Notes under the pieces: model-generated | The model's input: only the letters and a program-made list of their open reading frames with translations | Database searches by the model: none | Told to the model about the DNA's origin: nothing | Part shown: positions 37,723 to 64,000 of the stretch, piece after piece | Layout: the number at the start of each line of letters is the position of its first letter | Numbering within the stretch: the stretch's first letter is position 1 | Assembly (NCBI RefSeq): GCF_900110945.1 | Contig: NZ_FOFL01000004.1 | Location: forward strand, 124,001-188,000 | Direction of reading: 5' to 3' | Length of the DNA stretch: 64,000 nucleotides | DNA from: Devosia sp. YR412 | GTDB lineage: Bacteria > Pseudomonadota > Alphaproteobacteria > Rhizobiales > Devosiaceae | Program-made: the position numbers and the translations under genes

Positions 37723-39399
37723 ATGGCCAAGGTCGATATTGCCTTCGACACCTACTATACCTACGACGAAATGACGGTGCATCTACAGGCGCTGGCCGCG
37801 GCTTACCCCAAGCTTGCAACGCTCACCTCCGTCGCGAAGTCGCATCGCGGCCGCGATGTCTGGCTGATGGAAATCACCAATCCCGATACCGGTCCGGGCC
37901 TGGAAAAACCGGGCTTTTACATCGACGCCCAGATCCATGCCGAAGAGCATGCGACCAGCGCAACGGCGCTTTATGGGATCTGGTACATCCTCTCCAATTA
38001 CGGCACAGACGAGGAAGTCACCCGGCTGGTCGACAGCCAGGTGTTCTATGTGCTGCCGCGCATCAATCCCGATGGTGCCGAACTCTCGCTGGTGGAACCC
38101 TATCATCCCTGGTGCGGCAATGGCCGCTTCCTGCCCGGCGAAGATCGCCTGGAAGGCCTGATCCCGCAGGACATCAATGGCGATGGCTATATCGTCAACA
38201 TGCGCGTGCCCGACCCCACTGGCGAATGGAAGAAGTCCGAGCGTGATCCGCGCCTCATGGTGCAGCGGGAACCGGGCGAGGAAGGTGGGCAATATTTCCG
38301 CGTCTATCCCGAGGGCCTGATCCGCAATTATGACGGCGTGCATGTCAAGATCGAGAAGCAGGAAGACGGCAATATGAACCGTAACTTCCCGATCAACTGG
38401 TCGCCGCAGGAATATGGCTCGGGCGCCTATCCTTTCTCCGAACCAGAAGCCATGGCGATGGGCAAGTTGGTGCTGGATCACCCCAATATCTGCGGCATGT
38501 GCGCCTATCACACCCATGGCGGCATCATCCTGCGCCCGTCGATGCTGAAATACGACGCCGACATGAGCCCGCGCGATCTGGCGCTGTACAAGGATCTCGG
38601 TGGCGTCGGCACCCGGCTCACTGGCTATCCGGTAATCTCGACCTATGAGGATTTCACACCCGACAAGACCAAGGGCCGCCATGGCAGCCTCAAGGACTGG
38701 GTCTATGAAGAACTGGGAATCATCTGCTTTTCGACCGAACTGTGGGACATGGAGCGCACCGCCGGCGTCGACAAGAAGGGCTTTCTCAATCTCGGGCCGC
38801 GCGACGCCGATACCCAGCAGAAGGTCTTCGACTGGGTGATCGACAATGTCGGCGAAAAGGGTTTCCGCGACTGGGAGCATTTCGACCATCCCCAGTTGGG
38901 GCCGGTGGAAGTCGGCGGCATGGTCTATATCTGGAGCTATCGCAATCCGCCGGGCAAGCTGCTCGAGGAAATCTGCCACAACAACACAATGTTCAACCTG
39001 CGGCACGCTGCAGCGGCGCCGCAGGTCAAGGTCGACAAGTTCACCGTAGAAGCGCTCGGCGCCGATCTCTACAAGGTCTCGGCCGTAATCGCCAACCATG
39101 GCTATCTGCCCACGAACCTGTCGGACGTGGCCATCGAGAACAAGGTGGCCAAGCCTGTGACCATCACGCTGGACCTGGAAAATGCCAGCCTGGTGATCAA
39201 TCCGCAGAAGCAGGATCTGGGCAACCTGGCTGGCCGCAACGAGCGCAAGTTCAACTGGTCGAACTGGGGCCCGCAATGGTCGCCAACTGCCAAGCCGGTC
39301 GAATGGCTGGTCAAGGCCAATGGCCCGGGCGCCAAGGTGACGGCCATTGCCGCTTCGGAAAAGGGCGGCACACATCGGGTCAGTCAAGCACTCGGCTGA
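37723..39399 (+). CDS. M14 family zinc carboxypeptidase
   Basis: Cytoplasmic or secreted zinc peptidase of the M14 family, 558 residues, no obvious signal peptide. Seen: YYTYDEMTVHLQALAAAYP (typical N-terminus), the zinc site QIHAEEHATS (HxxE), PRINPDGAE, NMNRNFPINW (substrate-binding Asn-Arg), the third zinc ligand in AYHTHGG, and the catalytic Glu in FSTELWD. A C-terminal ~150 residues form an extra beta domain. It is the right boundary of the purine region and has its own FadR-type operator, the same as the transporter genes downstream, so it probably belongs to the peptide-like catabolic regulon. Confidence 0.9.
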   Translation: MAKVDIAFDTYYTYDEMTVHLQALAAAYPKLATLTSVAKSHRGRDVWLMEITNPDTGPGLEKPGFYIDAQIHAEEHATSATALYGIWYILSNYGTDEEVTRLVDSQVFYVLPRINPDGAELSLVEPYHPWCGNGRFLPGEDRLEGLIPQDINGDGYIVNMRVPDPTGEWKKSERDPRLMVQREPGEEGGQYFRVYPEGLIRNYDGVHVKIEKQEDGNMNRNFPINWSPQEYGSGAYPFSEPEAMAMGKLVLDHPNICGMCAYHTHGGIILRPSMLKYDADMSPRDLALYKDLGGVGTRLTGYPVISTYEDFTPDKTKGRHGSLKDWVYEELGIICFSTELWDMERTAGVDKKGFLNLGPRDADTQQKVFDWVIDNVGEKGFRDWEHFDHPQLGPVEVGGMVYIWSYRNPPGKLLEEICHNNTMFNLRHAAAAPQVKVDKFTVEALGADLYKVSAVIANHGYLPTNLSDVAIENKVAKPVTITLDLENASLVINPQKQDLGNLAGRNERKFNWSNWGPQWSPTAKPVEWLVKANGPGAKVTAIAASEKGGTHRVSQALG

Positions 39400-39418
39400 T
39401 CCCAGCCAATGCAATGAC

Positions 39419-39447
39419 AAAAAAGGGCCGGCGCGAGCCGGCCCTTT
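39419..39447. terminator. Bidirectional terminator
   Basis: AAAGGGCCGGC-GCGA-GCCGGCCCTTT, a perfect 11-bp stem. On the minus strand it is followed by a run of six T, on the plus strand by TTTCATTT. It sits between the convergent M14 peptidase and binding-protein genes and serves both. Confidence 0.88.
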
Positions 39448-39476
39448 CATTTGCCCTGCCTAAGGCTGGTCGTGAG

Positions 39477-41024
39477 TTACTTGAGCTTCGCGGTCCAGGC
39501 CTCGATCGCTTCGTCACGACGCGGCTCCCATTCGATACGGCTCGAAACACCATAGAAGTCGGGCTGGAAGTAGAGGAAAATCCACGGCGCATCGTCGTGG
39601 AAAATCTTGAGCATCTCGTCGACCACGACACGTTCCGCCTCGGGATCGCGGATGCCCGACAGGCTGTCCCAGCGGGTCTGCCATTCCTGGTTGAACCACA
39701 TGCCGTTATTGACCGGCACATCGCGCGATGGGAATAGCGACATGTCATAGATGGCGCTCCAGGTGGCGCCGCCCTGCCCGATGAAGAACAGAGGACCGGC
39801 CTTATGTTCGCGCGCCAGCGGCGAGAACAGGGTCATTTCCATCAGGTCATTGGTGGTTTCGACGCCGATATCGCTCAGATACTGGGCGATGGCCTGCTGC
39901 ACTGCACTGTCATTGAGGTACCGGCCCTGCGGTCCCTGCATGTCGAGGGTGAAGCGAACGCCATTGGCATCGCGCGGGAAGCCGGCGGCGTCGAGCGCGG
40001 CTTCAGCCGCATCGGGATCGTAGGGATAGGGCTCGATGCTGGGATCGCCCAAGTTCGCAGGACCATTGGCGCGGACGCATTCGGTGCCGAGTAGCTGCTG
40101 GCAGATGGTTGGCACGTCGACAGCCATGTTAAGGGCGCGGCGCACCTCGACATTCTTGATGGCATCGCCACCCGGGGTGCCATCGAAGGCGCCGGAGAAA
40201 TTGAAGCCGACGAACATGCGGCGCGTGCCGGCGACCGACTTCACCGTCGCATAGCCGGTGCTGTCGATGGCGTCGGCCTGGTCGGGCGGAATATTGGTGG
40301 CGATATCGACATTGCCGGCGATGAGTTCAGCGGTCCGGGTACTGGATTCCGGAACGACGCGGAAAATCACCTTGTCGAAAGGCACTTCACCGAGGGTCCA
40401 GTTCGGGTTCTTCTCCAGAACCACGCGGTCGGCGCGAACCCATTCGACCAGCTTGTAGGGACCCGAGGCGACGGGCGCGACCGCAGCTTCTTCGACGGTC
40501 AGCTTTTCGTAGCTGTCCTTGCAGTGAATGAAAATCTTGGCGGCCATGCCGGGTACGGTCGAGGAATAGCCTTTGAGCTGCATTACCGCCGTATTGCCCT
40601 CTTCGACGCGGGCGCCGACAAAGCCGATCGATGAATAGACGAAGCCGGGCGTATGGCCGATGAACTTGTTGGCCGGGTCGGCGGCGCGGGTGAAGGAATA
40701 GACGACGTCCTCGGCATCGAGTGTCTCGCCATCTTCGCACATCAGGCCGTCGCGGATCTTGAACGAGATTTCCGTGCCTTCGTCATTCCACGCATAGCTT
40801 TCGGCGAAGTTTGGCACGATTTCACCCTGCGGCGTAACGCTGAGCAGCGTACCCCAGAGATGGCTGGCGACATTGATCGATGTCGCCTGGTTGAGCATGT
40901 CCGGCTCGAGCGATTCAACATCGACCGATTGGGCAATCACCAGCGTTCCTGCATCGGCCTGAGCGAAAGCCGGCCAGCAACTGGCCGCCAGTAGCAGCGC
41001 GCAAGCGCTTATCCTCTTGAGCAT
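39477..41024 (-). CDS. Family 5 ABC substrate-binding protein (copy 3)
   Basis: Periplasmic oligopeptide/opine-type binding protein, 515 residues, with signal peptide (~1-22, FAQA). Seen: EPDMLNQATSINVASHLWGTL opening, DGLMCEDGETLDAEDVVYSF, the IHCKDSYEKLTVEEAA stretch shared with two other copies at 46020 and 47818, TRTAELIAGNVDI, and FLYFQPDFYGVSSR near the end. Six cysteines recur in similar places, suggesting disulfides. Start ATG 41024 follows AAAAGGGGA. It has its own promoter and FadR-type operator, downstream of a Gfo/Idh gene. Confidence 0.92.
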   Translation of the reverse strand: MLKRISACALLLAASCWPAFAQADAGTLVIAQSVDVESLEPDMLNQATSINVASHLWGTLLSVTPQGEIVPNFAESYAWNDEGTEISFKIRDGLMCEDGETLDAEDVVYSFTRAADPANKFIGHTPGFVYSSIGFVGARVEEGNTAVMQLKGYSSTVPGMAAKIFIHCKDSYEKLTVEEAAVAPVASGPYKLVEWVRADRVVLEKNPNWTLGEVPFDKVIFRVVPESSTRTAELIAGNVDIATNIPPDQADAIDSTGYATVKSVAGTRRMFVGFNFSGAFDGTPGGDAIKNVEVRRALNMAVDVPTICQQLLGTECVRANGPANLGDPSIEPYPYDPDAAEAALDAAGFPRDANGVRFTLDMQGPQGRYLNDSAVQQAIAQYLSDIGVETTNDLMEMTLFSPLAREHKAGPLFFIGQGGATWSAIYDMSLFPSRDVPVNNGMWFNQEWQTRWDSLSGIRDPEAERVVVDEMLKIFHDDAPWIFLYFQPDFYGVSSRIEWEPRRDEAIEAWTAKLK

Positions 41025-41073
41025 TTTCGTCCCCTTTTGCCATTCCACGAGAAGTCATCCATCGCCGAGCAAC

Positions 41074-41096
41074 GCTAATCTTGTAATACAATTAGC
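41074..41096. promoter_or_regulatory. GntR/FadR-type operator before binding-protein copy 3
   Basis: TTGTAATACAA at 41081-41091 fits TNGTnnnACNA, and outer arms GCTAAT (41074-41079) and ATTAGC (41091-41096) extend the symmetry. It sits 11-33 bp downstream of the predicted start site of the adjacent promoter, a position suited to repression. Confidence 0.75.
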
Positions 41097-41113
41097 ATGT
41101 CTAACGTAGTGCG

Positions 41114-41143
41114 ATAGTGATGATGGCAGATTGATGCTGTCAA
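41114..41143 (-). promoter_or_regulatory. Promoter of binding-protein copy 3
   Basis: On the minus strand a perfect TTGACA (positions 41143-41138), 18 bp, then CACTAT (positions 41119-41114). It gives this gene expression independent of the upstream operon. Confidence 0.5.
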
Positions 41144-41164: not shown

Positions 41165-42208
41165 CTAGCTCAAAAGGCGCGCCAGACCATTGCGCTCGTA
41201 GAAATCGGCCATGGTCACCGCTGCGCCGGTCTGGCTGCTCTCTATGCCGGCAAAGCACAGGCTGAGCGAACGCAGGTGATCGCGACCATCACAGGGTGGT
41301 GGCCTGCCATTCCGGACGGCGGTGATGAACTCGGCCAGCAAGGCCACGCTATCGTCGTAATAGGGCGCAGCTTCGGCAGTTTCGACCGGGATCAGTTCAG
41401 GATCGGCGCTGCGAGCATAGGCAAGGTCTGAATGGAGCTTCCGCTGCACCAGGATGCCCTCGGCGCAATCGACGCGCCATTCAAAATTATAGACGTTCCA
41501 GCCGCCCGACCATGTGCCGTGGTAATTGACCTCGACGCCGCCTTCGAGACCGAGCAGGCAGTTCACATTGGCATCGTGGGCATACATGCTCCACGGCGGG
41601 TTCCATTCCCGGCAGGCAATGGTCTCTACCTCACGGCCATGCACGAAACGGATCAGATCCAGGTGGTGGATGGTCTGCTCGAGCATCATCGGATGCTCCA
41701 TTTCGAGAGGATAGCGGTTGATGCCCGGACGTTTGCCATTGCGGTTGGTGCGATAGTTAAACTGCCCGAAGCCTACCTGCCCCAACCGTTCGCCGGTGAG
41801 CCACTGGCGCATGGTCTGGTTGACCGGCAGGTAACGGAAGTTGAGGCCGACGCTCATCGGCAGGCCCGATGCATCGGCCATGTCGACGATGGCAGCCGCA
41901 TCGGCCAGGGTGGTGGCTAGAGGCTTCTCGGCCATAATAGGCAGGCCGGCGTCGAACAGGCGGCGCATCTGGGCGAGATGGCCATCCGGTGGTGTTACCA
42001 GGATGACGGCATCGTAAAACCCGGCGGCCAAGGCCGCTTCCACGTTGGTAAAAGCCGGTGTTTCGGGGTTCTCAGCCGCATAGAGGTCAAGCGATGCCTG
42101 GCTGGGATCGACGACGGCACCAGTGATGACACAGTCGGACATCTTAACGACCTTGCCCCACATGCGACCGCGCGTACCGGCACCCAATTGCAGAACGGTG
42201 AATGCCAT
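41165..42208 (-). CDS. Gfo/Idh/MocA family oxidoreductase (copy A)
   Basis: NAD(P)-dependent dehydrogenase of the glucose-fructose oxidoreductase family, 347 residues. Seen: N-terminal Rossmann fold VLQLGAGTRGRMWG, EKPLA (the conserved Lys), GLNFRYLPVNQTMRQW and the catalytic HHLDLIRFVHG. It is clearly paralogous to the protein at 49374: both contain PxWSMYAxDANV, VNYxGTW and FEWRxxCA in the same order. In both cases a family 5 binding-protein gene follows directly. The substrate is unknown; family members oxidise sugars, inositols, or act on glycosidic bonds by a redox route. Confidence 0.9.
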   Translation of the reverse strand: MAFTVLQLGAGTRGRMWGKVVKMSDCVITGAVVDPSQASLDLYAAENPETPAFTNVEAALAAGFYDAVILVTPPDGHLAQMRRLFDAGLPIMAEKPLATTLADAAAIVDMADASGLPMSVGLNFRYLPVNQTMRQWLTGERLGQVGFGQFNYRTNRNGKRPGINRYPLEMEHPMMLEQTIHHLDLIRFVHGREVETIACREWNPPWSMYAHDANVNCLLGLEGGVEVNYHGTWSGGWNVYNFEWRVDCAEGILVQRKLHSDLAYARSADPELIPVETAEAAPYYDDSVALLAEFITAVRNGRPPPCDGRDHLRSLSLCFAGIESSQTGAAVTMADFYERNGLARLLS

Positions 42209-42217: not shown

Positions 42218-42943
42218 TCAGGCTGCAGTGTCTATGGCCTGGGACATGTCCCAGGCGTTGAGGCGCTGACCGTTGAGGTCGGGATGACGTCGCTCGGCAA
42301 GGGCAACAAAGGCCGAGGTCAGCATCATCGGATCGACCCATTTGGTCTTGAGCTCGGCGGAATAGTTCCGCTCCGACATCGGGGTCTGCATATACATGCC
42401 GGGCGTGATGGTATTGGATTGGATACCCACGGCCGCACCTTCCGCCGCCAGCGATTGCGAAAAGCCTTCCAGCGCATGCTTGGCCGCGCAATAGGCCGTC
42501 TCATTGGCAAAGCCCTGGATGCCCGAGCGAGACGAAACGAAGATCATGGCGCCGCCGCCATTGGCTACCATGCCCGGCCAGACGGCATGGGCCAGCTGAT
42601 AACCGGCCTGAAGACCGACGTTTACCGTCTTGAAGAAGCTGGCAAAATCCTCATCAACGAAGGGCTTTTCGATCAGGATCGCCGCATTGTGCACCAGCGT
42701 GGTCACCGGTCCGGTGATGGCCAGCGCCCGGTCAATGGCCTGCTGGGTTGCCGTCGCATCGGACAGGTCTACAGCGATACCTTCGGCGCGTCCGTCGCAG
42801 GCCGCAACAACCTGCTGCAGGCCTTCGGCATTGTAGTCCATCAGGACAAGCTTTGCCCCGGACGCGGCGTAGCGGCGGGCAATGGCGGCGCCGAGACCTT
42901 GCGCCGCGCCGGTGACGACAATGCGCTGTTCGCCAAGGTTCAT
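42218..42943 (-). CDS. Short-chain dehydrogenase/reductase
   Basis: Classical SDR, 241 residues. Seen: cofactor motif TGAAQGLG (~12-19), an Asp at ~36 after the second strand that points to NAD rather than NADP, NNAG-equivalent VHNAAIL, Ser at SSRSGIQG and catalytic YCAAKHALE. It overlaps the upstream Gfo/Idh gene by 4 bp and is followed 9 bp later by another, suggesting sequential redox steps on a hydroxylated substrate. Confidence 0.92.
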   Translation of the reverse strand: MNLGEQRIVVTGAAQGLGAAIARRYAASGAKLVLMDYNAEGLQQVVAACDGRAEGIAVDLSDATATQQAIDRALAITGPVTTLVHNAAILIEKPFVDEDFASFFKTVNVGLQAGYQLAHAVWPGMVANGGGAMIFVSSRSGIQGFANETAYCAAKHALEGFSQSLAAEGAAVGIQSNTITPGMYMQTPMSERNYSAELKTKWVDPMMLTSAFVALAERRHPDLNGQRLNAWDMSQAIDTAA

Positions 42944-44019
42944 TTGCCGGTTTCCGCCGGCAGGTCGACCCAGGCCCGGCTCTTGGTGGACTGCTTTACG
43001 GCATCGAGCACCAGCTGATTGGCCAGACCGTCATGGAAGGTGGCGCCACGCCGGAGCGACCGCCCCTCGGCGATCGCCGCCGACATTTCCTGCAGGGCCG
43101 CGACAACCGAGACATTCCAGATGCCCTTGTTGACGCCCGGCAGGCGGGCATTGGGATCGTCGACGGTGATATCCACGAAGCTGCCGCCCGCCTTGGCGTA
43201 GAGGAGCTTTTCGTCGCCATTGTCGAGCAGGATGGTGCCCTTGGAGCCGAAGACCTGCGTCAGATTGCCGATATTATTGGCGGCAACGCCACTCATGAAC
43301 ACCTGGACGCGGGCGCCGCTATTCATGGCCATGGTGAAATAGGAGACGTCATCCGCCGTCGCCGTCCAGGGCTCGTTGGTCACCTTGTCCAGGCGATTGG
43401 GGATCACGGTGAGCGCTTCCCCGACCACCGAAGCGACCGGACCGAGCCACCAGCGGATCATGTCCACCTGATGGCTGCCATTGGCGCCGAGGCGACCGCC
43501 GCCCTGCTCGGCCAATGACCACCAGTCGCCCTTGGGACGCGAGGCGGGATTGGCCCAGGAGGCGCCGATATTGGCGATATTGACGTGGCGGATCTCGCCG
43601 AGGTCGCCCTCTGCGATCATCTCGGCCACTTTAGCGCGGTTGGGATTGAACCGCATTTCATGGTCCAGCATATGCAGCCGGCCGAGGCCCTCCGCCTTGT
43701 CGAGCATGGCGCGCGCCTCGGCCGCATCCATCGCCGTCGGCTTTTCGCAGACCACATGGGCGCCCTGCTCCAGCGCCGCCAGCGTCATCGGGGCATGGGT
43801 GACTGTCGGCGTGGCGATGAGCACCAGGTCGAACCGATGACTGTCCAGCATTGTCCGCCAGTCGGCATAGGCATTAGGCACGCCAAAAGCCGTTGCGGCC
43901 GACTGGGCGCTTTCGAGCCGACCCGAGGCGATCGCAACGACCTCGGCACCCGGCACATGCTTGAGCGCAGGCAGATAGGCGTCACGCGCAAAACTTGCGC
44001 CGATGATTCCGACTTTCAT
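42940..44019 (-). CDS. Gfo/Idh/MocA family oxidoreductase (copy B)
   Basis: NAD(P)-dependent oxidoreductase, 359 residues, only distantly related to the two other copies. Seen: GIIGASFARDAYLPAL (Rossmann), VCEKPTAMDAAEA, LDHEMRFNPNRAKVAEM, and the catalytic region GANGSHQVDMIRWWLG. The C-terminal domain carries GSKGTILLDNGDEKLL, typical of the family. It starts 19 bp after the DppC-type permease gene and overlaps the SDR gene by 4 bp. Confidence 0.9.
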   Translation of the reverse strand: MKVGIIGASFARDAYLPALKHVPGAEVVAIASGRLESAQSAATAFGVPNAYADWRTMLDSHRFDLVLIATPTVTHAPMTLAALEQGAHVVCEKPTAMDAAEARAMLDKAEGLGRLHMLDHEMRFNPNRAKVAEMIAEGDLGEIRHVNIANIGASWANPASRPKGDWWSLAEQGGGRLGANGSHQVDMIRWWLGPVASVVGEALTVIPNRLDKVTNEPWTATADDVSYFTMAMNSGARVQVFMSGVAANNIGNLTQVFGSKGTILLDNGDEKLLYAKAGGSFVDITVDDPNARLPGVNKGIWNVSVVAALQEMSAAIAEGRSLRRGATFHDGLANQLVLDAVKQSTKSRAWVDLPAETGK

Positions 44020-44038: not shown

Positions 44039-44965
44039 TCAGCCGACCGTCTTGAGGCGCGGATCGAGGAAATCGCGCAGCCAGTCGCCGAGGATATTGA
44101 ACGAGAGAACCGTGCAGACGATGGCCAGGCCCGGGAACACGGCCAGCCACCACTTGTTGGCCATCAGCTGGTCGCGGCTGTCGGCCAACATGGCGCCCCA
44201 GGTCGGCACATTGGGCGGAACGCCCAGGCCTAGAAAGGACAGCGAGGCTTCTGACAGGATGACGCTGGCCACGTTGAACGAAGCGATGACGGTGAGCGGC
44301 GCCATGATATTGGGCAGGATGGTGCGGAAGATCACCGAGAAGGTGCTGTCGCCCAAGGCGCGTGCCGCCTCGACATATTCCTTTTCGCGCAGGGAGAGCG
44401 TCTGCGCGCGCACGATTCGCGCATAGGTCACCCACTGCCCAACCCCGAGCACCAGGATGATGTTGAAGACGCCCGGCCCCAGGATCACCAGGAACATGAT
44501 GGCCAGCAGGATGAAGGGAAAGGCCAGCTGGATGTCGCCAAGGCGCATGATGACGTCGTCGATCCAGCCGCCGAAATAGCCGGCCACCAGCCCGGCGACG
44601 ACGCCGATCGTGCCGCCGACCATGATGGCGAAGACGCCAACCATCAGCGAGATACGGGCGCCATAGAGCAGGCGCGACAGCACATCGCGGCCGAGCCCGT
44701 CGGTGCCCAGATAGAACATGGCATTGTTGCGCCCGCCCGCGGTCAGCGGATCGGCCAGGCGCAGCATGATGTTCTGCCGGTTCGGATCGAGCGGCGCGAT
44801 GGCCGGCCCGAAGATTGCGGCAAACAACACGCCGAGCAGGATGAACAGCGCGACCAGCGGCCACTTGGCAGCGACGAGGCTGCGCCAGGCGCGGCGAAAC
44901 TCCTTGCGGCGGTTGGACAAGGGAGGTGCTGCAGGACGGGCGGCAGTTACGGTATCGACGGCCAT
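44039..44965 (-). CDS. Peptide-type ABC transporter permease (DppC family)
   Basis: Inner-membrane permease, 308 residues. Seen: a cytoplasmic N-terminus (1-35), the OppC_N helix (~36-58), GTDGLGRDVLSRLLYG (hallmark of OppC/DppC), five further spans, and the EAA loop EYVEAARALGDSTFSVIFRT. It follows the DppB-type gene by 10 bp. No ATPase gene is in this operon or the rest of the window. Confidence 0.93.
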   Translation of the reverse strand: MAVDTVTAARPAAPPLSNRRKEFRRAWRSLVAAKWPLVALFILLGVLFAAIFGPAIAPLDPNRQNIMLRLADPLTAGGRNNAMFYLGTDGLGRDVLSRLLYGARISLMVGVFAIMVGGTIGVVAGLVAGYFGGWIDDVIMRLGDIQLAFPFILLAIMFLVILGPGVFNIILVLGVGQWVTYARIVRAQTLSLREKEYVEAARALGDSTFSVIFRTILPNIMAPLTVIASFNVASVILSEASLSFLGLGVPPNVPTWGAMLADSRDQLMANKWWLAVFPGLAIVCTVLSFNILGDWLRDFLDPRLKTVG

Positions 44966-45950: not shown

Positions 45951-45980
45951 GTTCGCAAGGTCCAATCATCGAAAGAGGGG

Positions 45981-52035: not shown

Positions 52036-52036
52036 C

Positions 52037-53466: not shown

Positions 53467-53491
53467 CTGCATGTCCCCTGTGCCAGACCTC

Positions 53492-56207: not shown

Positions 56208-57728
56208 CTAGAGGCTGTAAAGTTCGCTGTATTTGGTGGTGAGGTGGGCAATATAGGGCTCGGGATCGAGCTTGCGGCCCGTCGCCTTGACCAGCAGTTC
56301 ATCGCGCATGTAGCGGCGCCCGTGCTGATGCACATTCTCGACCATGTAGGCCCGCAGTGGCTCGTAATTGCCCGAAGCCAGGCCGCTGGCGATGGTCGCA
56401 TCCTGCTTCGCGGTCTCGAACAGCTGGCCGGCCATCACATTGCCGATCGTGTAATTGCAGAAGGTGCCGATCTGGCCCGATGACCAATGCACGTCCTGCA
56501 GCACGCCCAGCGCGTCATTGGGCACGTCGAGACCGAGATATTCCTTGATCTTGGCGTTCCAGGCCTCGGGCAGATCCTTGACCTTGAGCGAACCGTCGAT
56601 CAGTGCCGCCTCGATGTCGGTGCGCAGCATGACGTGGAAATCATAGGTCAGTTCATCGGCCTCGACGCGGATCAGGCCCGGCTTGCAGCGATTGACCGCC
56701 CGGAAGAATTCCTCCGCCGTCACATCGGCCAGCTGCTCGGGATAGAAGGCCTGCGCCTCGGCGAAATTGACTGCCCAGAACTCCCGGCTGCGGCCGACAT
56801 GGTTTTCCCACAGGCGCGACTGCGATTCATGGGCGCCAAAACTGACGCCGCCCACGGCATAAAGACCGACAAGGTCGGTAGCGAAAGGCGTGCGCGTATA
56901 GGCTGCGTCCACACCCTGCTCATAGAGCGCGTGACCAGCCTCGTGAAGCGCACCGAACAGGCTTGCCGCGACATAATTTGGATTGAAGCGCGTGGTGATG
57001 CGCACGTCATTGCGGGTGAATGACACTTCGAAGGGATGCAGCGTCGTATCCAGCCGCCCGCGATTGAGGTCGTAGCCGACCTTCTGCGACATCGAGAGGG
57101 CAAATTCATGCTGCTTGTCGATCGGATAGAAGCGCTCAAGGAAATCGAAGCGCGGCTGCTCCTTGTCGCCGATCGCCTTGACCAGCGGGATCAGCGCCTC
57201 GCGCAGGCGGGCAAACAGCGGGGTGAGGCTGGCGACGGTTTCGCCGGGCTCGAAGCGATACATCAGCGCATCATAGGGATGCGCCTCATAGCCAATGGCC
57301 TCTGCCATCTCGCGATTGAGCGCCACGGTCTGCTCGAGGATCGGCGCAAACTGGCTGAATTCGCTTTCGGCTCGCGCCTTGGCCCAGACGGCATGGCCGT
57401 TGGCGCCCAGCTCAGCCCGCTTGCGGGTCAGTTCGGCCGGAATGGCAAGGTGATAGTCGATGGCAGCACGCACTTGGGCGACCATGACCTTTTCCACAGC
57501 TTCATCAGGCATGGCGGCAACTTCCGCCTCGGCTCTGTCCAAGTGGCTGCGCGTCGACGCGGAAACCAGCAGGTCGCGGGTCAAAACCGACAGCGTGGCC
57601 AACTGCTTGCCACGCGTTTCGTGACCGCCATGAGGCATCATGGTGCGAGCATCCCAGCTCAGGATCGACTGCGTGTTGAGCAGGTCGTTCACCTGACCCA
57701 CACTCTCCATAAGCTGCGCGTAACTCAT
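56208..57728 (-). CDS. M32 family metallocarboxypeptidase (Taq type)
   Basis: Zinc carboxypeptidase that removes single residues from peptide C-termini, 506 residues, cytoplasmic. Seen: SWDARTMMPHGGHETRG (N-terminal helical region with the conserved MMPxG), HPFEVSFTRNDVRITTRF, the zinc site HEAGHALYEQG, the third ligand in FGAHESQSRLWEN, and DELTYDFHVMLR. All family motifs are complete. It is the first gene of the long minus-strand operon and is divergent from the DUF4438 genes. Together with the M14 peptidase it implies a peptide-like substrate. Confidence 0.93.
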   Translation of the reverse strand: MSYAQLMESVGQVNDLLNTQSILSWDARTMMPHGGHETRGKQLATLSVLTRDLLVSASTRSHLDRAEAEVAAMPDEAVEKVMVAQVRAAIDYHLAIPAELTRKRAELGANGHAVWAKARAESEFSQFAPILEQTVALNREMAEAIGYEAHPYDALMYRFEPGETVASLTPLFARLREALIPLVKAIGDKEQPRFDFLERFYPIDKQHEFALSMSQKVGYDLNRGRLDTTLHPFEVSFTRNDVRITTRFNPNYVAASLFGALHEAGHALYEQGVDAAYTRTPFATDLVGLYAVGGVSFGAHESQSRLWENHVGRSREFWAVNFAEAQAFYPEQLADVTAEEFFRAVNRCKPGLIRVEADELTYDFHVMLRTDIEAALIDGSLKVKDLPEAWNAKIKEYLGLDVPNDALGVLQDVHWSSGQIGTFCNYTIGNVMAGQLFETAKQDATIASGLASGNYEPLRAYMVENVHQHGRRYMRDELLVKATGRKLDPEPYIAHLTTKYSELYSL

Positions 57729-57826: not shown

Positions 57827-57842
57827 AGATTGTCGACAATCT
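57827..57842. promoter_or_regulatory. Perfect 16-bp palindrome between the divergent operons
   Basis: AGATTGTCGACAATCT is a perfect palindrome with TTGT/ACAA half-sites like those at 37637 and 41081, but with 2 bp between them instead of 3. It lies in the 194-bp region between the M32 and DUF4438 start codons, where one regulator could control both directions. Confidence 0.72.
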
Positions 57843-57922: not shown

Positions 57923-58804
57923 ATGAGCACCGATCTGGGGAGACTTACCTCCAATTCCGACGCCCTCGTCGCCATGGCAGTTTGCGGCTATGTCAGCACG
58001 CCATCGCTGCGTCCGGGGCACTACACGCACTATCCCGACGGCAAGGGTGTCATCCTGCCCGGAATGTTCGGCGTGACCTATAATGCTAGCGTCGGCGACC
58101 GCGCCTTTGGCTGGGCCGGCGACCATGTCGAGCCCGGTGTTTCCATCGCCCATCCGGACGAAAAGTCGGACATGGCGCTGCATTACCTGAGCTGCGTCGG
58201 CAATGAAGCCACTGTCATGTCTGGCCTCGCCAAGGGCGCTAAGGGCACCGTGACCGGCGAGCATGCCCGCCTGCTCGTCGCCTTTCCTGATGAGGTCAAC
58301 GAGCTGCTCAATATCGGCGACCAGATCCAGATCGAGGCTCTCGGCCGCGGCATTGCGCTCGATGAGTTTCCGCAGGTCGAATTCAAGAAGACCAGCCCCA
58401 AGCTGTTGCAGGCCCTGCGCCTGACTCGGAGCGGCAATGGCGCACTCAAACTTCCCGTCGCCATCGAACTGCCGATCGAGATCATGGGCTCGGGCGCCGA
58501 ACTCAATTCCGAATATGTCGACCAGGACCTGATGAGCGGCGATCGCCAGCTGATGGCCGACCTTGGTGTCGACCAGATGCGGCTGGGCGACATCATCGCC
58601 ATCCGCCACGCCGACCACCATTTCGGCCGCTCCTATCGCGAGGGCGCCGTCTCCATCGCCATCTGCATCCACGGCGACTCGATCATGACCGGCCACGGGC
58701 CGGGCATCATGACGCTGATGAGCTGCGCCGAAGGCGGCATCGAGTTCGACATCGACCCGACCGCCAACATTTCCAACTACTTCCGTATCGGAGCCGCCAA
58801 ATGA
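57923..58804 (+). CDS. DUF4438 domain protein (copy 1)
   Basis: Protein of the DUF4438 family, 293 residues; as far as I recall the family has no established function. Seen: VAMAVCGYVSTPSLRPG, GVTYNASVGDRAFGWAGDHV, PGVSIAHPDEK, CVGNEATVMSGLAKGAKGTV, and near the end RLGDIIAIRHADHHFGRSYR and GHGPGIMTLM. ATG 57923 is chosen because GGAAG precedes it and the length then equals the second copy; an upstream TTG has no signal. No signal peptide. It overlaps copy 2 by 4 bp (ATGA), so the two are probably subunits of one complex. Confidence 0.82.
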   Translation: MSTDLGRLTSNSDALVAMAVCGYVSTPSLRPGHYTHYPDGKGVILPGMFGVTYNASVGDRAFGWAGDHVEPGVSIAHPDEKSDMALHYLSCVGNEATVMSGLAKGAKGTVTGEHARLLVAFPDEVNELLNIGDQIQIEALGRGIALDEFPQVEFKKTSPKLLQALRLTRSGNGALKLPVAIELPIEIMGSGAELNSEYVDQDLMSGDRQLMADLGVDQMRLGDIIAIRHADHHFGRSYREGAVSIAICIHGDSIMTGHGPGIMTLMSCAEGGIEFDIDPTANISNYFRIGAAK

Positions 58805-59679
58805 CCGTCAGTTTCAACGAAGCCGATCTCGTTGCCGTCTCGGTCGGCGGCATCATTGCCCATCCCGGCTTTCCCGGCCTGCCGGCCGAGCCCTATCGCC
58901 TCGCCGCCGACGGCACGCCCTTCCTGCTGCCGGCCTGGGGCGGCATCGTCTACAATATCTCGGTTGGCGACCGCGCCTTCGGCTGGGCCGCCGATTGCAT
59001 CCATCCCGGCGTCTCGATCCGCGGCACCGATGACCTGAAGAACCGCGGCCTCAACGTCTTTGCCTGCCTGGGCAATACGGCCACCGTCATGACCGGCCAG
59101 GCGCAGGGTGCCAAGGGCGTCGTCACCGGCAAATCCGGCCGCTTTTCCGAACAGGTGATCGTCCACTTTCCCAAGGACATCCGCAAGAAAATGTCCGTTG
59201 GCGACCAGATTCTGGTCAAGTCCTACGGCACCGGCATCTCCATCACGGGCCATGAGGCGATCAACTGCAAGGGCCTGTCGCCAGACCTGCTCAAGGTCCT
59301 GCCCAGCAAGGTCGAAGATGGCGTGCTCAAGTTCGGCGTCGTCGCCACCGTGCCGGCCTTTCTAGTCGGCGCCGGTGCAGGCCTTACCAGCGAAGGCGGC
59401 AGCCTGCATATGCAGTCGACCGACAAGGCTGCGCTGAAAGAGGCCGGTCTCGACCAGCTCAAGCTCGGCGATGTGGTCGCCATCGAGAATACCGATAGTC
59501 GCTACAACCACGGTTACCTGCGCGGCGCCATGAGCATCGGCATTGTCGGGCAGACCGATGGCCCGCGCTCCGGCTATGGCCCCGGTATGACGGTGATCAT
59601 GACCGCGCCCAAGGGAGAACTCGGCGCCTATGCCGAAGCCTCCGCCAATATTGCCGCCCTGCTCAAGCTCGAGGCATAG
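58801..59679 (+). CDS. DUF4438 domain protein (copy 2)
   Basis: Second DUF4438 protein, 292 residues, paralogous to copy 1 along its whole length. Seen: VAVSVGGIIAHPGFPG, LPAWGGIVYNISVGDRAFGW, PGVSIRGTDDLKNRG, CLGNTATVMTGQAQGAKGVV, KLGDVVAIENTDSRYNHGYLRG and SGYGPGMTVIMT. The clustered Gly and the conserved Asp/His/Asn in the last third look like an active or binding site. It is followed 3 bp later by the Ldh-family dehydrogenase. Retention of two diverged copies argues for a heteromeric enzyme or distinct substrates. Confidence 0.82.
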   Translation: MTVSFNEADLVAVSVGGIIAHPGFPGLPAEPYRLAADGTPFLLPAWGGIVYNISVGDRAFGWAADCIHPGVSIRGTDDLKNRGLNVFACLGNTATVMTGQAQGAKGVVTGKSGRFSEQVIVHFPKDIRKKMSVGDQILVKSYGTGISITGHEAINCKGLSPDLLKVLPSKVEDGVLKFGVVATVPAFLVGAGAGLTSEGGSLHMQSTDKAALKEAGLDQLKLGDVVAIENTDSRYNHGYLRGAMSIGIVGQTDGPRSGYGPGMTVIMTAPKGELGAYAEASANIAALLKLEA

Positions 59680-59682: not shown

Positions 59683-60765
59683 GTGGCCATCACGCTGACC
59701 AATGTCGACAGGCCCAGCCTTGAGCGTTTCATGTCGGAAGGTTTCGAGGCACTCGGTCTGACGAGCGGCGACGCTCGCATCTTTGCCGATGCGCTGATCT
59801 TTTCCGAGCTACGCTTCCACCCCGGCCACGGCCAGGGCGTGCGTCGCCTGCGCCGCTATCAGGAGCGGATCGCCCAGAAACTGGTCGATCCTCGTGCGCC
59901 CTTTGAAGTGGTCAAGGAGAGCCCTGCCCTCGCCCTCGTCGATGCACACAACGGCATCGGCACTGTGGCGGCCGCCAAGGCCATGAAGCTGGCCGTGGAA
60001 AAATCCAAGGTCTGCGGCATCGGCCAGGTGATCGTGCGCAATTCCACCCATTATGGCTCGTCGGCGGTCCATGCCTGCCAGGCCATGGAAGCGGGCTGCA
60101 TCGGCATTGCTTATACCAATGCCGGCCCCGAAATGGCGCCATGGGGTGGTCGCGAAGGCGCGGTCGGCACCAACCCCTGGGGCATTGCCGCGCCGACAAG
60201 TCTCGGCTTTCCCGTCGTGATGGATTTTGCCCTGACCACGGCCGGCAAGGGCATGATGCTCTGGCATGCCCGCGAAGGCAAAAAGATGCCGACCGACTGG
60301 GCGCTCACCCCCGCCGGCGAAGTGACCGACGACCCCAATGCCGCCATGCAGGGCGCCCTTTTGGCCATCGGCGAATATAAGGGCTATGGCCTCGCCTTCA
60401 TGACCGATGTGCTAACCGGCGTCATTTCCGGCGGCGGTTTTGGCCTTACGCCCTATGCCGATCAAGCCAGGCTCGACGTCTCCCATAGCCTCACCGCCAT
60501 CGACATCGAGTGGTTTATGCCGCTCGAGACCTTCAAGGCGCGGATGGGCGAATTTTCCGAAATGGTCAAAAGCCGGGCGACGCGCCCCGGCTTTTCCGAA
60601 ATCCTCATTCCCGGCGAACAGGAAGCCCGCCGCGTGGCGAAGAAATCCGCCGCCGGAGTGCCGCTAGACGACGACGTGCTCAAGGACCTTGTCACCCTCG
60701 GTACCGAACTAGGCCTTTCTGCCCGCATCGAAGCGCTCGGCCCCTATCGGGAGGATCGCCTGTGA
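59683..60765 (+). CDS. Ldh family oxidoreductase (malate/L-lactate/ureidoglycolate dehydrogenase type)
   Basis: NAD(P)-dependent dehydrogenase of the Ldh_2 family, 360 residues, the family that includes ureidoglycolate dehydrogenase AllD. Seen: DALIFSELRFHPGHGQGVRRL (substrate Arg and His), STHYGSSAVHACQAME (catalytic His), YTNAGPEMAPWGGREGAVGTNPW (NAD loop) and GYKGYGLAFMTDVLTG. GTG start. With AllA-like and PuuE-like proteins in the divergent operon, oxidation of a ureide or 2-hydroxy acid is plausible but not shown. It overlaps the M24 gene by 4 bp (GTGA). Confidence 0.9.
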   Translation: MAITLTNVDRPSLERFMSEGFEALGLTSGDARIFADALIFSELRFHPGHGQGVRRLRRYQERIAQKLVDPRAPFEVVKESPALALVDAHNGIGTVAAAKAMKLAVEKSKVCGIGQVIVRNSTHYGSSAVHACQAMEAGCIGIAYTNAGPEMAPWGGREGAVGTNPWGIAAPTSLGFPVVMDFALTTAGKGMMLWHAREGKKMPTDWALTPAGEVTDDPNAAMQGALLAIGEYKGYGLAFMTDVLTGVISGGGFGLTPYADQARLDVSHSLTAIDIEWFMPLETFKARMGEFSEMVKSRATRPGFSEILIPGEQEARRVAKKSAAGVPLDDDVLKDLVTLGTELGLSARIEALGPYREDRL

Positions 60766-61943
60766 CCCTGGTCCTGCCGATCGTCCAACCCGTCAAGCCA
60801 CTCGGCGCGAGCTTCCGTCAGGCCGTGCGGGATCGCCTGCTCCAGGCTGCAGCGGCGCGCGGGTTGGACGGCGTGCTGCTGCTGTCGCCGGCCAATGTCT
60901 TCTACGCCTGCGGCTTCCACTTCTCGGTCAACGAGCGCCCCGTCGGCCTCTATGTGCCGGTCGACGGCGAGCCGACGCTTTTCATCCCATTGCTGGAGCT
61001 GGAAAATGCCCAGCCTACGCCGGGTGTCTCGCTTGGCGTCTATGAGGAATTTCCCGGGCTGGTGCATCCGGTGGTCTGGATGGTCTGTCAGTCCAAGGCC
61101 AATCGCATCGCCATCGATGGGCTGGATGCCCGCCAGATCGCGCCGCTCAATACCCTGCTCGATGAATTGGTCCTCGAAGACCTGATTGCACCGCAGCGCT
61201 ATATCAAGACCGCGGAAGAACTGGTGCTGACCCGCATCGCGGCCAGCTATGCCGATCTCTGCCTCGAACGCCTGCTGGCTGAAGCTGGCAACATCATCGC
61301 CCAAGGCGGCAGCGAGCTCGATCTGCATGCCGATTGCACCGGCTTTGCCTTGGCCGCCCTCAAGCGCGACTATGGCGCAGCCTTTGCCGGATCCAAGCTG
61401 GCTGTCGCCGCCTCGGTGCATTCCGGCCCGCGCTGCGCCCTGCCCCATGGCGCCACCAGCCATCGCCAGCCGCTTGCCGGCGAAACCATCATCTGCGGCG
61501 TCGGCGCCACCCTCGGCGGTTACCACGCCGAAAGCGGCGTCACGCTCTTCACTGGCGAAATAACTGCCGAACATCGACGCGTCATGATCGCCATGGACGC
61601 CTGCAATGATGCGGCTGTCGCCGCGCTCAAGCCCGGCGCCCGCTGCCAGGATGTCAACGAGGCGGCGCTCGATGCCCTCAAGGCCGCCGATCTCGGCGAC
61701 GCCATCCGCCATCGTATCGGTCACGGCATGGGCGTCGAAGGCCATGAGGCGCCTTGGCTCGCTCCCGGCGACATGACCGAGGTCGCGCCCAGCATGGTGT
61801 TTTCCAACGAGCCGGGCGTTTACCGCCCCGAGCGCGACGGCTATCGCACCATCAACACCATGCTGGTTCAGCCGGACGGCGTCGAAATTCCCAGTCGGTT
61901 CCAAGCCGACCATCCCATCGAACAGCGCGTCATCGCGCTCTAA
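60762..61943 (+). CDS. M24 family protein (creatinase/prolidase fold), metal site largely lost
   Basis: Pita-bread-fold protein, 393 residues, related to Xaa-Pro aminopeptidase, creatinase and ectoine hydrolase. The N-terminal creatinase domain (~1-150) is present. In the catalytic domain the usual Asp pair is replaced: CGVGATLGGYHAES has Gly and Glu where metallo-members have Asp. The His (RIGHGMGVEGHEAP) and one Glu (SNEPGVY) remain, but the last Glu is missing in YRTINTMLV. Creatinase is a metal-free member of this family, so a non-peptidase C-N hydrolase is likelier than a peptidase. GTG start overlapping the dehydrogenase. Confidence 0.87.
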   Translation: MTLVLPIVQPVKPLGASFRQAVRDRLLQAAAARGLDGVLLLSPANVFYACGFHFSVNERPVGLYVPVDGEPTLFIPLLELENAQPTPGVSLGVYEEFPGLVHPVVWMVCQSKANRIAIDGLDARQIAPLNTLLDELVLEDLIAPQRYIKTAEELVLTRIAASYADLCLERLLAEAGNIIAQGGSELDLHADCTGFALAALKRDYGAAFAGSKLAVAASVHSGPRCALPHGATSHRQPLAGETIICGVGATLGGYHAESGVTLFTGEITAEHRRVMIAMDACNDAAVAALKPGARCQDVNEAALDALKAADLGDAIRHRIGHGMGVEGHEAPWLAPGDMTEVAPSMVFSNEPGVYRPERDGYRTINTMLVQPDGVEIPSRFQADHPIEQRVIAL

Positions 61944-61956
61944 TAGAGGTGCTTGA

Positions 61957-63186
61957 ATGCCCGAACCCGTAGCCTGGCACTATACCAAGATCACCAAGCC
62001 GATGTTCGACCAGAAGCCGGTCGACCAGATTCTGGTTGGTCGCATCATCACCGCCAATGGCGACGAGATCATCAAGGACGGCTTCGTGGAAGTCATCGGC
62101 GGCAAGATCACCCGTGTCGGCCAAAAGTCCGAAATGGGCACGCCGACCCTCACCGTCACCGATACCGGCGGCAAGACCATCATGCCCGGACTCATCCAGT
62201 CGCATGGCCATCTCTCGTGGGACGGCGTGCATGAGCTGTCTTTCCAGTCCATGTATGACAGCCCAGAAATCCGCGCCTACAAGGCCGCCGGCAATATGCT
62301 GAAGTCCCTGCGCGCCGGCGTCACTTTGGTGCGCGACCTTGGCGTGCACAATGCCAATCTCTTCGCCAAACAGGCCGTCGCCCAGGGTTTCTTCCCGGGC
62401 CCGCGCCTTCTGGTCTCCGGCGAGAGCATCATCCAGACCGGCGGCCACACCTATTGGGTCTGTCGCGAAGCCTCGGGCGCCGACGAAATGCGTCGTGCCG
62501 TGCGCGACCAGGTCAAGGGCGGCGCCGATCTCATCAAGATCATGGCCTGCCACGATACGCTCGAATTCACCGACGCCGAGCTCGAAGCCGTCATCGATGA
62601 AGCCCATCGCAATCGCCTGCCCGTCACCGCCCACGCAACCTATGACGCCTGCATCAGGCGCGTCGTCGAATTCGGCGTCGACTGCGTCGAACACGGCGGC
62701 TCGATGAGCGACGAGACCATCCAGCTGCTGCTCGACAAGAAAATCCCGATAGTCACGACCTTCTCGGCTTTGGTCATCCAGTCCAAGCCCGAGATCGCCC
62801 GTGCCTTCGGCATTCCCGAATGGAAGATCGCCGAGCGCCAGAAGGCCGTTGCCGACAAGACCCGCTTCGATGGTCTCGTCCGCGCTGCCAAGGCCGGCGT
62901 GCCGATCGTCTTCGGCACTGATGCCGGCAGCCCGGCTGTCGAGCATGACCAGATAGCGCCCGAGCTCGAATTCATGGTCGAGGTCGGCGTCTGCACCAGC
63001 AAGCTGGATGCGCTCCGCGCCATCACCATTCGCGGTGCCCAGCTTTCGAAAATGGACAAGAAAATCGGCACGGTCGAAGTCGGCAAGGAAGCCGATCTGA
63101 TCGTCGTCGACGGCAAACCCGATGAAGATTTCTACGCGCTGGAACGCGTTCAGATGACGTTCATCGCTGGCAAGAGGATGCATTGA
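61957..63186 (+). CDS. Amidohydrolase family protein (imidazolonepropionase/dipeptidase-like)
   Basis: Binuclear-metal amidohydrolase, 409 residues. Seen: GLIQSHGHLSWDG (HxH), DLIKIMACHD with the Lys that is carboxylated in this class, VTAHATYDACI (His), CVEHGGSMSD (His), and FGTDAGSPAVEH (Asp). The set resembles the imidazolonepropionase-like and Xaa-Arg/Xaa-Pro dipeptidase subgroup. The composite beta-sandwich domain uses residues ~20-75 and 360-409 (KIGTVEVGKEADLIVVDG). It sits between the M24 and aminotransferase genes (2-bp gap to the latter). Confidence 0.9.
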   Translation: MPEPVAWHYTKITKPMFDQKPVDQILVGRIITANGDEIIKDGFVEVIGGKITRVGQKSEMGTPTLTVTDTGGKTIMPGLIQSHGHLSWDGVHELSFQSMYDSPEIRAYKAAGNMLKSLRAGVTLVRDLGVHNANLFAKQAVAQGFFPGPRLLVSGESIIQTGGHTYWVCREASGADEMRRAVRDQVKGGADLIKIMACHDTLEFTDAELEAVIDEAHRNRLPVTAHATYDACIRRVVEFGVDCVEHGGSMSDETIQLLLDKKIPIVTTFSALVIQSKPEIARAFGIPEWKIAERQKAVADKTRFDGLVRAAKAGVPIVFGTDAGSPAVEHDQIAPELEFMVEVGVCTSKLDALRAITIRGAQLSKMDKKIGTVEVGKEADLIVVDGKPDEDFYALERVQMTFIAGKRMH

Positions 63187-63187
63187 T

Positions 63188-64000
63188 ATGAGCGTAATTG
63201 CAGACAAACTGACCAGCCGCATCGTCGAGGAAGACGGCTCTTTCCGCAGCAAAATGCTGGCCATTGCCGCCACCCTGCCCAGCGTCATTGCCATGGGCCG
63301 CGGCGATCCGGATTTCCATACGCCCGCCCATATCACCGAAGCCGCCAAGAAGGCCATCGACGAGAACCAGCATCACTATACCGGCCCGACCGGCCTGCCC
63401 CAGTTGCGCCAGGCCATCGCCGCCGACCTCAAGGCCGAATATGGCCTCGACTACGGCGCCGATGACATTGTCGTCACGGCCGGTGTGCAGGAATCCATCA
63501 CGCTCATCATGCTGTCGCTGATTGCTCCGGGCGATGAGGTGCTGATCACCTCGCCGCGCTTCATGACCTATGACACCGCCGTCGGCCTGGCCGGCGGCAC
63601 GCCGATCCCGGTCCCGACCTATGAAAAGGACGATTTTGCTCTCGATATCAACGAGATCGAACAGCGCATCACGCCCAAGACCAAGATGTTCGTCTTGGTC
63701 TCGCCCAACAACCCAACCGGCGCCGTGACCCCGCCCGATGTCATCCGCAAGATCGCCGATCTGGCCATCAAGCACGACATCCTCATCGTTTCCGACGAGA
63801 TCTACGCCAAGATCATCTATGAGGGGAACGAGCACCTCTCCATCGCCACCATTCCGGGGATGAAGGAGCGGACCATCACGCTCAATGGCTTCTCCAAGAC
63901 CTATGCGATGACCGGCTGGCGCGTAGGCTATCTCGCCGCGCCAGCCGACTTCGTCACTAAGGTCACCGAAGTCCGTCACACGCTCTCGATCAATACCTGC
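63188..64000 (+). CDS. Class I/II PLP aminotransferase (copy 2), partial
   Basis: First 271 residues of a fold-type I aminotransferase; the gene runs off the right edge. Seen: AMGRGDPDFHTPAHITEAA, TAGVQESITLIML, VSPNNPTGAVTPP, VSDEIYAKIIYEG and NGFSKTYAMTGWRVGY with the PLP lysine. It resembles copy 1 at 54991 over the whole visible length. It starts 2 bp after the amidohydrolase stop, so it belongs to the same transcript as the DUF4438 genes. Confidence 0.92.
   Translation, partial: MSVIADKLTSRIVEEDGSFRSKMLAIAATLPSVIAMGRGDPDFHTPAHITEAAKKAIDENQHHYTGPTGLPQLRQAIAADLKAEYGLDYGADDIVVTAGVQESITLIMLSLIAPGDEVLITSPRFMTYDTAVGLAGGTPIPVPTYEKDDFALDINEIEQRITPKTKMFVLVSPNNPTGAVTPPDVIRKIADLAIKHDILIVSDEIYAKIIYEGNEHLSIATIPGMKERTITLNGFSKTYAMTGWRVGYLAAPADFVTKVTEVRHTLSINTC

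Follow-up and report, generated by a model that had tools for sequence, protein, structure and literature searches.

We examined a 64,000-nucleotide stretch of the Devosia sp. YR412 contig NZ_FOFL01000004.1 (positions 124,001-188,000; hereafter the window, whose positions serve as coordinates below), in which a long series of transporter, peptidase, hydrolase and oxidoreductase genes runs from 37723 to the window end. With moderate confidence, we read these genes as part of a single catabolic regulon, horizontally mobile and directed at a peptide-like compound, covering its import and cleavage, the handling of a sugar part, ring opening, and oxidation and transamination. The case rests mainly on synteny and on the palindrome TTGTAWTACAA. 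A sequence-only reading of the same DNA had proposed one large catabolic regulon lacking a described counterpart, and we likewise found no described pathway with this gene set in the literature searched, mostly without subscription journals.

Gene content and layout of the block

Gene calling from coding potential and codon usage placed 24 genes (g29-g52) between 37723 and the window end, and the whole block, which continues to the right beyond the window, has more than 30. It reaches at least the second M14 carboxypeptidase gene (70.99 kb), and its right limit is probably at about 87 kb. Genes on the same strand are closely packed, with 20 of the 25 same-strand gaps from g31 to g57 being shorter than 20 bases or 4-base overlaps, and the two divergent gene runs meet between the M32 carboxypeptidase gene (57710, minus strand) and the first of two DUF4438 genes (57923, plus strand).

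The leftmost gene, on the plus strand, encodes an M14 zinc carboxypeptidase (M14a, g29, 37723..39399; PF00246, 6.7e-41) with no signal peptide by eye. The minus-strand run then comprises genes for a family-5 solute-binding protein (SBPa, g30, 39477..41048; PF00496), a Gfo/Idh/MocA dehydrogenase (GfoA, g31, 41165..42208; PF01408; IolG-like, 82.5 of 355 bits), a short-chain dehydrogenase (SDR, g32, 42218..42943; PF00106), a second Gfo/Idh/MocA dehydrogenase (GfoB, g33, 42940..44019; PF01408; levoglucosan dehydrogenase model, 118.9 of 650 bits), ATP-binding cassette (ABC) permeases of the OppC/DppC type (g34, 44039..44965; PF00528, PF12911) and the OppB/DppB type (g35, 44976..45965; PF00528, PF19300), and two further family-5 binding proteins, SBPb (g36, 46020..47570; PF00496) and SBPc (g37, 47818..49377, its start taken from gene calling; PF00496 on the longer frame). 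The run continues with a third Gfo/Idh dehydrogenase (GfoC, g38, 49374..50450; PF01408, 57.2 bits), an NAD-dependent epimerase/dehydratase (g39, 50447..51361; PF01370), a GntR/FCD regulator (g40, 51358..52035; PF00392 and PF07729 on the longer frame), an AllA-like protein of the ureidoglycolate-lyase family (g41, 52037..52558; PF04115, 81.1 bits against a gathering score of 23), a PuuE-like protein with the allantoinase/polysaccharide-deacetylase fold (g42, 52555..53472; TIGR03212, 376.8 of 424.6 bits), an AstE/AspA-like deacylase (g43, 53492..54493; PF24827; DoeB model, 90.4 of 402.7 bits), a VOC (glyoxalase-fold) protein (g44, 54499..54981; PF13669, Glyoxalase_4), a class I aminotransferase (AT1, g45, 54991..56193; PF00155, 3.2e-74) and the M32 carboxypeptidase (g46, 56208..57710; PF02074, 1e-167 on the longer frame). 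The plus-strand run begins with the DUF4438 proteins a and b, DUFa (g47, 57923..58804) and DUFb (g48, 58801..59679), each matching PF14505 and PF20999, and proceeds to an Ldh_2 dehydrogenase (g49, 59683..60765; PF02615, 2e-104), a protein with the M24 fold but without its usual metal-ligand set (g50, 60762..61943; PF00557 on the longer frame), an amidohydrolase of the prolidase/arginine-carboxypeptidase type (AH1, g51, 61957..63186; PF01979) and a second aminotransferase (AT2, g52, 63188..64000, ending beyond the window at 64369; PF00155, 1.6e-66). On visual inspection, signal-peptide-like N-termini are seen in the binding proteins g36 and g37 and in none of the enzymes.

Right of the window the block continues with a GHL10-like protein (g53, 64366-65793; PF02638), followed by an allantoinase/hydantoinase-like amidohydrolase (g54), two Opp-type ABC ATPases (g55 and g56, oligo_HPY, 67.2-69.3 kb) and the second M14 carboxypeptidase (M14b, g57, to 70.99 kb). 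Two dipeptidase-like amidohydrolases, two SDRs and a GMC oxidoreductase lie after g57, to 76786, and a RidA protein, a DegT aminotransferase, hydantoinase B, hydantoinase A, a penicillin-amidase-like protein, a dipeptidase-like amidohydrolase and a second GntR/FCD regulator (GntR2) extend to about 87.03 kb. In the flanks of six related genomes, HyuA/B adjoin the block in three (G755, G183 and G544), GntR2 stands beside it in three (G755, G776 and G544), and GMC together with DegT in two (G183 and G544). The penicillin-amidase-like protein and the amidohydrolase AH5 had no best match in those six flanks and are for that reason the least certain members of the block. Farther right on the same contig, outside the regulon (L133:9299-15898), a YkuD-type L,D-transpeptidase gene is followed by an Amidohydro_3 protein with a PnrA-like binding protein and a BPD_transp_2 permease, components of a nucleoside-type ABC importer.

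Conservation, probable transfer and operator-like sites

To place the block among its relatives, we scanned a genome collection with a DUF4438 alignment and used the best 80 of at least 456 relatives. Tblastn pieces covering less than 40% of the query were dropped, for the family counts also those below 30% identity, and each gene was named by its best match. Counts are over the 56 full-length loci (at least 20 kb), whose flanks stop at 10 kb, so that genes at the edges are undercounted. The block genes are not scattered in these relatives: a full-length locus holds 5-20 of the block families (median 18.5). DUFa was found in all 56, DUFb in 55, Ldh in 54, AT2 in 52, and GHL10, VOC and GfoC in 50 each, followed by AH2 and M24 (46 each), the epimerase (45), M32, AT1 and AH1 (44 each), AllA (39), PuuE (38), AspA (35) and GntR (26). 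Pairwise divergences of 14 genes track those of DUFa (r 0.60-0.91). A few handles do not denote independent records, as L043/G183, L017/G776 and L014/G542/G784 are each almost surely one record.

The ABC importer, amidohydrolases, two M20 peptidases, adenine deaminase, nucleoside hydrolase and phosphoribosyltransferase encoded to the left (g19-g28, 26416-37595) found matches in related loci only below 50% identity, and because of this we kept them outside the block; they resemble a separate purine/nucleoside system.

The best 80 loci come from Alphaproteobacteria, Gemmatimonadota, Acidobacteriota, Chloroflexota, Deinococcota and one actinobacterium. The alphaproteobacterial carriers are Devosia, Pelagibacterium, Rhizobium, Neorhizobium, Aureimonas, Microvirga, Methylobacterium, many Rhodobacteraceae and single-cell marine records, and the remainder are Gemmatimonadota, Acidobacteria, Anaerolineae and other Chloroflexi, Trueperaceae and the actinobacterium Enemella. 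Of 289 genomes in a class-wide sample only that of the window has DUF4438, and of 61 genomes in the family six have it, with two copies each. The AspA-like protein (E of 1e-40 or below) occurs in three of 249 genomes of the order, own included, from three genera. The plasmids searched gave the AspA-like protein matches below 60% identity alone, and DUF4438 had no match on the plasmids or phages searched. Six marine alphaproteobacterial single-cell or bin records (L085-L090) hold the core block; the G537 set amounts to about 1.2 Mb and is possibly incomplete.

A midpoint-rooted tree of DUFa, DUFb and Ldh, built from the window and the 73 of 80 loci having all three, places the actinobacterium among Rhodobacteraceae (support 0.956), and Gemmatimonadota and three of the four Acidobacteria inside an otherwise alphaproteobacterial clade. 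One Truepera locus groups, weakly (0.19-0.71), with Microvirga and an acidobacterium. The simplest reading of this tree is that the unit has been transferred between phyla. Many of the 80 loci are metagenome bins, in which contigs can be misassigned; wrong binning of single contigs could explain some of the cross-phylum cases, but hardly the repeated Gemmatimonadota ones. A large catabolic cluster would be expected to break up across phyla, whereas here the core, and often the operator, is kept. The carriers are bacteria of soil, plant surfaces and the sea, and since the core is kept across phyla, marine carriers included, the regulon probably acts on something common in organic matter, which the literature searched nowhere linked with these genes.

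Operator-like palindromes of two kinds occur in the block, in agreement with the shared operators that had been proposed for it. The first, TTGTAWTACAA, precedes M14a (TTGTATTACAA, 37637..37647) and SBPa (TTGTAATACAA, 41081..41091), and has a third copy at 75144 before the SDR/amidohydrolase operon; these are the only three sites in the 3.83-Mb genome, in which the reversed control has none. Further copies precede the matching SDR3 operon in L069 and DUFa in L070, and there are none in the stretches fetched from G755, G776 and G183. The second kind lies in the divergent promoter between M32 and DUFa (AGATTGTCGACAATCT, 57827..57842), where its core, TTGTCGACAA, recurs across phyla. Exact TTGTCGACAA occurs 23 times in the 1.46 Mb of the 80 loci, and in 22 loci it falls within the 320 bases (25 kb in total) that precede the DUFa match. 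When one mismatch is allowed, 49 of the 80 loci have it there, against 1.26 on average and 5 at most in 200 control draws of other 320-base stretches. It is by its fixed place before DUF4438, not by its rarity, that TTGTCGACAA supports the regulon. As for the regulators, g40 may read TTGTCGACAA and GntR2 may read TTGTAWTACAA.

Residues, folds and the DUF4438 pair

Both M14 proteins, g29 and g57, have the zinc motif HxxE, the Asn-Arg pair for the C-terminal carboxylate and the catalytic Glu (HAEE, NRN and TELW in g29). The position lining the S1' pocket in carboxypeptidase A is likely occupied by Lys in M14a and by Met in M14b, a hint of acidic and neutral C-termini, respectively.

The M24 protein had been called metal-free. 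The five-ligand set of metal-dependent M24 enzymes (Asp, Asp, His, Glu, Glu) is absent from g50, with three of the five positions, as placed from the alignment, replaced in 56 of 57 cluster members each (first Asp by Gly, second Asp by Glu, last Glu by Ile), but the change from Asp to Glu could still bind metal. Kept are His229 (56 of 57), His321 and Glu350 (57 of 57 each) and Glu257 (nearly all), and His229, Glu257 and Glu350 may correspond to the general-base His and two guanidinium-binding Glu residues of creatinase.

The nearest kin of g54 are allantoinases and hydantoinases, the best solved-structure match of HyuA is an N-methylhydantoinase, and the hydantoinase A and B genes, which overlap by 4 bases, score over the cut-offs of their families (PF01968, 322.3 bits; PF02538, 593.2 bits). 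AH1 and three related amidohydrolases are similar to Xaa-Pro dipeptidase and to arginine carboxypeptidase, and the arginine carboxypeptidase Cc2672 is second among the PDB matches of AH1. The GHL10 family is matched by g53 at 29.7 bits (gathering score 27.9) over 89 residues only; its model, with a predicted local distance difference test score (pLDDT) of 86, lies nearest the PgaB C-terminal domain and Cwp19 (Z about 25). Glu197 of g53, after a central strand, is invariant in 18 of 18 sequences; no full catalytic pair was identified. A shortened aminotransferase-like protein (230-240 residues) stands directly before the full one in Anaerolineae or other Chloroflexota, Trueperaceae and an acidobacterium (L045:13280-13999, on which Pfam was run, L080:8069-8791, L074:9950-10642 and L070:7138-7842), as if the two formed a heterodimer.

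The DUF4438 proteins match their Pfam domains (PF14505/PF20999) at 158.5/143.8 and 163.9/133.3 bits, far over the gathering scores of 24.9/27. The fold of DUFa is that of TM1086 over 263 residues (Z 34.5, 42% identity), which was the sole full-length match found with Foldseek and VIA-align, and residues ~18-141 match the small barrel of F1-ATPases (Z about 9); as these were the only matches, the fold search gave no function. DUF4438 goes unmentioned in the literature searched, and the papers found for TM1086 were, judged by title, mostly on other subjects, with one about crystallisation. In DUFa, His68, Glu70, His114, Asp202, His250 and His258 are kept in 81 of 81 sequences, and His114, His250 and His258 also in all ten aligned relatives outside the cluster type. 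DUFb has at the same positions Cys (72 of 81), His (79), Ser (78), His (79), Gln (64) and Tyr (75). This pattern suggests that DUFa is the catalytic and DUFb the supporting subunit, and the two probably assemble into a single hetero-oligomeric enzyme, acting at a step for which no enzyme is known. Exactly two copies were present in each of the 11 genomes reached through chosen loci.

Elsewhere, DUF4438 was found in 10 of 201 Chloroflexota genomes, six of them single-copy. Two Chloroflexota genomes (L128:3292-11894 and L129) hold a different DUF4438 pair beside Gfo/Idh, 2-hydroxyacid dehydrogenase-like, SDR and Mur-ligase-like genes, with no recognised peptidase in the stretch seen. A single-copy DUF4438 gene adjoins selB, for the selenocysteine elongation factor, in L125:9266-12110, and another adjoins the gene of a molybdopterin-dehydrogenase FAD-binding protein in L126.

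Proposed route, rival readings and known systems

Our best reading is a substrate with a ring (cyclic ureide, amidine or lactam) and, probably, a sugar or cyclitol moiety. The Dpp/Opp-type importer with its several binding proteins would take up the peptide-like compound, whose amide bonds would then be cleaved in the cytoplasm by the two M14 enzymes, M32, the AstE/AspA-like deacylase and the dipeptidase-like amidohydrolases. The sugar or cyclitol part could be handled by the glycosidase-fold protein, Gfo/Idh enzymes, SDR and epimerase, and the ring opened by the allantoinase-like, creatinase-like and hydantoinase A/B enzymes, leaving Ldh_2 and the aminotransferases to make 2-oxo acids and amino acids from the fragments. 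The DUF4438 pair would act as a hetero-oligomeric enzyme, a being catalytic and b supporting, and the GntR/FCD regulators may gate the regulon through the TTGTCGACAA and TTGTAWTACAA sites.

Much of the sequence-only reading agrees with this outline. Its families for the 24 genes were borne out almost item by item by Pfam and NCBIfam, and its uptake of a peptide-like compound (by a Dpp/Opp-type ABC system with three family-5 binding proteins), its peptide or acyl cleavage (by many C-N bond hydrolases) and its ring opening all stand, the last strengthened by hydantoinase A/B, the allantoinase-like enzyme and the metal-poor M24. The transporter it listed is complete in the window as to the three SBP_bac_5 proteins and OppB/OppC, but the ATPases lie outside. 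It had the 24 genes right and missed the right half of the block, the spread across phyla and the likely sugar chemistry (three Gfo/Idh, the PgaB/Cwp19-fold protein, DegT and GMC), and neither the amino-acid-derived origin nor the identity as a cyclic dipeptide, opine or hydantoin that it suggested was borne out.

Several points weigh against the regulon we propose. We ran 30 regulon proteins against NCBIfam, part of the run with E-value limits of 1e-20 and 1e-25; one SDR exceeded a broad subfamily cut-off (225.7 of 215 bits), and because no protein reached a pathway-defining equivalog cut-off among the matches listed, each reaction is assigned from its superfamily. The g53 sequence matches known enzymes no better than E 0.015 (Cwp19), and the argument for a sugar is weak, the Gfo/Idh, SDR and epimerase families also acting on non-sugars. 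The 80 loci are the closest relatives, so the sample favours conserved neighbourhoods, and DUF4438 is found singly elsewhere. TTGTCGACAA occurs at nine sites in the window's genome, only one of them in the block, with four for the reversed control, and it is missing in the six marine loci and most Trueperaceae. Moreover, the 12-base ATTGTCGACAAT is given as the PrpR consensus of Pseudomonas aeruginosa in PMC9765439, and on that account we regard TTGTCGACAA as a shared GntR-type site. The eight sites outside the block perhaps serve other GntR-type regulators, e.g., PrpR-like ones. Finally, the block may serve for more than one compound.

Part of the gene set can be reconciled with each of three substrate classes, namely muropeptides, peptidyl-sugar natural products and glycated peptides. 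If muropeptides were the substrate, the importer would bring in peptidoglycan fragments, the GHL10-fold, PuuE-like, AspA-like, M14 and M32 proteins would take apart the amino sugars and the stem peptide, and oxidation would fall to Gfo/Idh and SDR for the sugar and to Ldh_2 for the lactate. The carboxypeptidases fit such a route, and peptidoglycan, being made by nearly all bacteria, would suit the wide range of habitats. However, the standard recycling families NagZ, AmpD, AnmK, MurQ and LdcA were not among the Pfam hits of the block proteins scanned, and hydantoinase A/B and the creatinase-like and allantoinase-like enzymes would have no role. As to g53, the Cwp19 that it resembles in fold is a peptidoglycan lytic transglycosylase (PMC6016235), but that likeness carries no function, because a GH156 sialidase has the same fold without the Cwp19 active-site residues (PMC6811678). 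We consider muropeptide catabolism unlikely.

It is also improbable, in our view, that the block has no single substrate and broadly scavenges damaged amino acids and a mixture of small peptides, with nothing but common regulation joining its genes. Such breadth would suit the four SBP/OppB/OppC sets on the G183 contig, the match of four amidohydrolases to the Xaa-Pro dipeptidase model and the replacement of M14, M32 and M20 peptidases by one another between lineages, but the core (the DUF4438 pair, Ldh, VOC, GfoC, AT2 and GHL10) stays together across phyla, often with one operator, which argues for a defined route.

It is quite doubtful that the block serves to degrade a natural product of the peptidyl-sugar or cyclic-guanidine type (streptothricin-like, or a peptidyl nucleoside), by opening of lactam and guanidine rings, removal of amino-acid tails and oxidation of the sugar. 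The lactam/hydantoin openers, the creatinase-like M24, the DegT aminotransferase and RidA all fit a cyclic-guanidine product, and the aminotransferases score about as high with the model of GntC, which forms a cyclic guanidine, as with plain aminotransferase models (316.5 and 345.2 bits). On the other hand, carriers among marine Alphaproteobacteria and Anaerolineae are odd for a soil antibiotic, and the M14 residues for a free C-terminal carboxylate do not suit streptothricin, whose beta-lysine chain ends without one.

More speculative still would be a dedicated mobile pathway for glycated (Maillard-type) peptides, e.g., arginine hydroimidazolones, imported whole, trimmed by the carboxypeptidases and oxidized in the side chain by Gfo/Idh and SDR, with the hydantoin/creatinine-like ring opened by HyuA/B, the allantoinase-like enzyme and the metal-poor M24, and the DUF4438 pair acting at the sugar-ring junction. 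If true, it would explain the sugar, peptide and cyclic-guanidine enzymes together, as well as the spread in bacteria of soil, plants, sludge and the sea.

Compared with known systems, the regulon we propose shares parts with several. Like allantoin/ureide degradation, the block holds PuuE-like g42, AllB-like g54, AllA-like g41 and AllD-like Ldh g49, but all are below their NCBIfam cut-offs (g42 near, at the score given above; g54 at 291 of 357.85 bits, TIGR03178; g41 at 72.4 of 160, PRK13395; g49 at 159.2 of 496.2), and peptidases, a peptide importer and sugar-type enzymes are foreign to the known route; on these scores, and on the low identity of the purine genes to the left in related loci, we rejected purine/allantoin degradation. 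Ectoine degradation (DoeA/EutD, DoeB/EutE) likewise combines an M24 protein of altered metal site with an AstE/AspA-like deacylase, and was rejected on the model scores (DoeA TIGR02993, 40.8 of 613 bits; DoeB TIGR02994, 90.4 of 402.7), the remaining gene set differing as well. With creatinine/N-methylhydantoin and caprolactam degradation (HyuA/B, CapA/B, creatinase) the block shares the creatinase-like M24 and a hydantoinase A/B pair whose nearest solved structure is N-methylhydantoinase and whose nearest models are those of caprolactamase; the caprolactamase models NF050156 and NF050157 score 597.7 and 264.9 bits, however, against cut-offs of 1000, and no creatininase or carbamoylsarcosinase family was among the Pfam hits of the proteins scanned. 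The importer has the SBP_bac_5, BPD_transp_1 and oligo_HPY components of Dpp/Opp-type peptide systems, but its binding proteins fall far below named models (Opp4A, 116.6 of 650 bits; GsiB for SBPc, 99.8 of 594). The DUF4438 proteins share the fold of TM1086 of Thermotoga maritima (PDB 3dcl/3n99) and here form a tandem a/b pair inside a catabolic block. Two crystal structures exist for the DUF4438 family, for which we found no function; the block offers a pathway in which to place it, the a/b pairing in tandem and a set of residues for testing.

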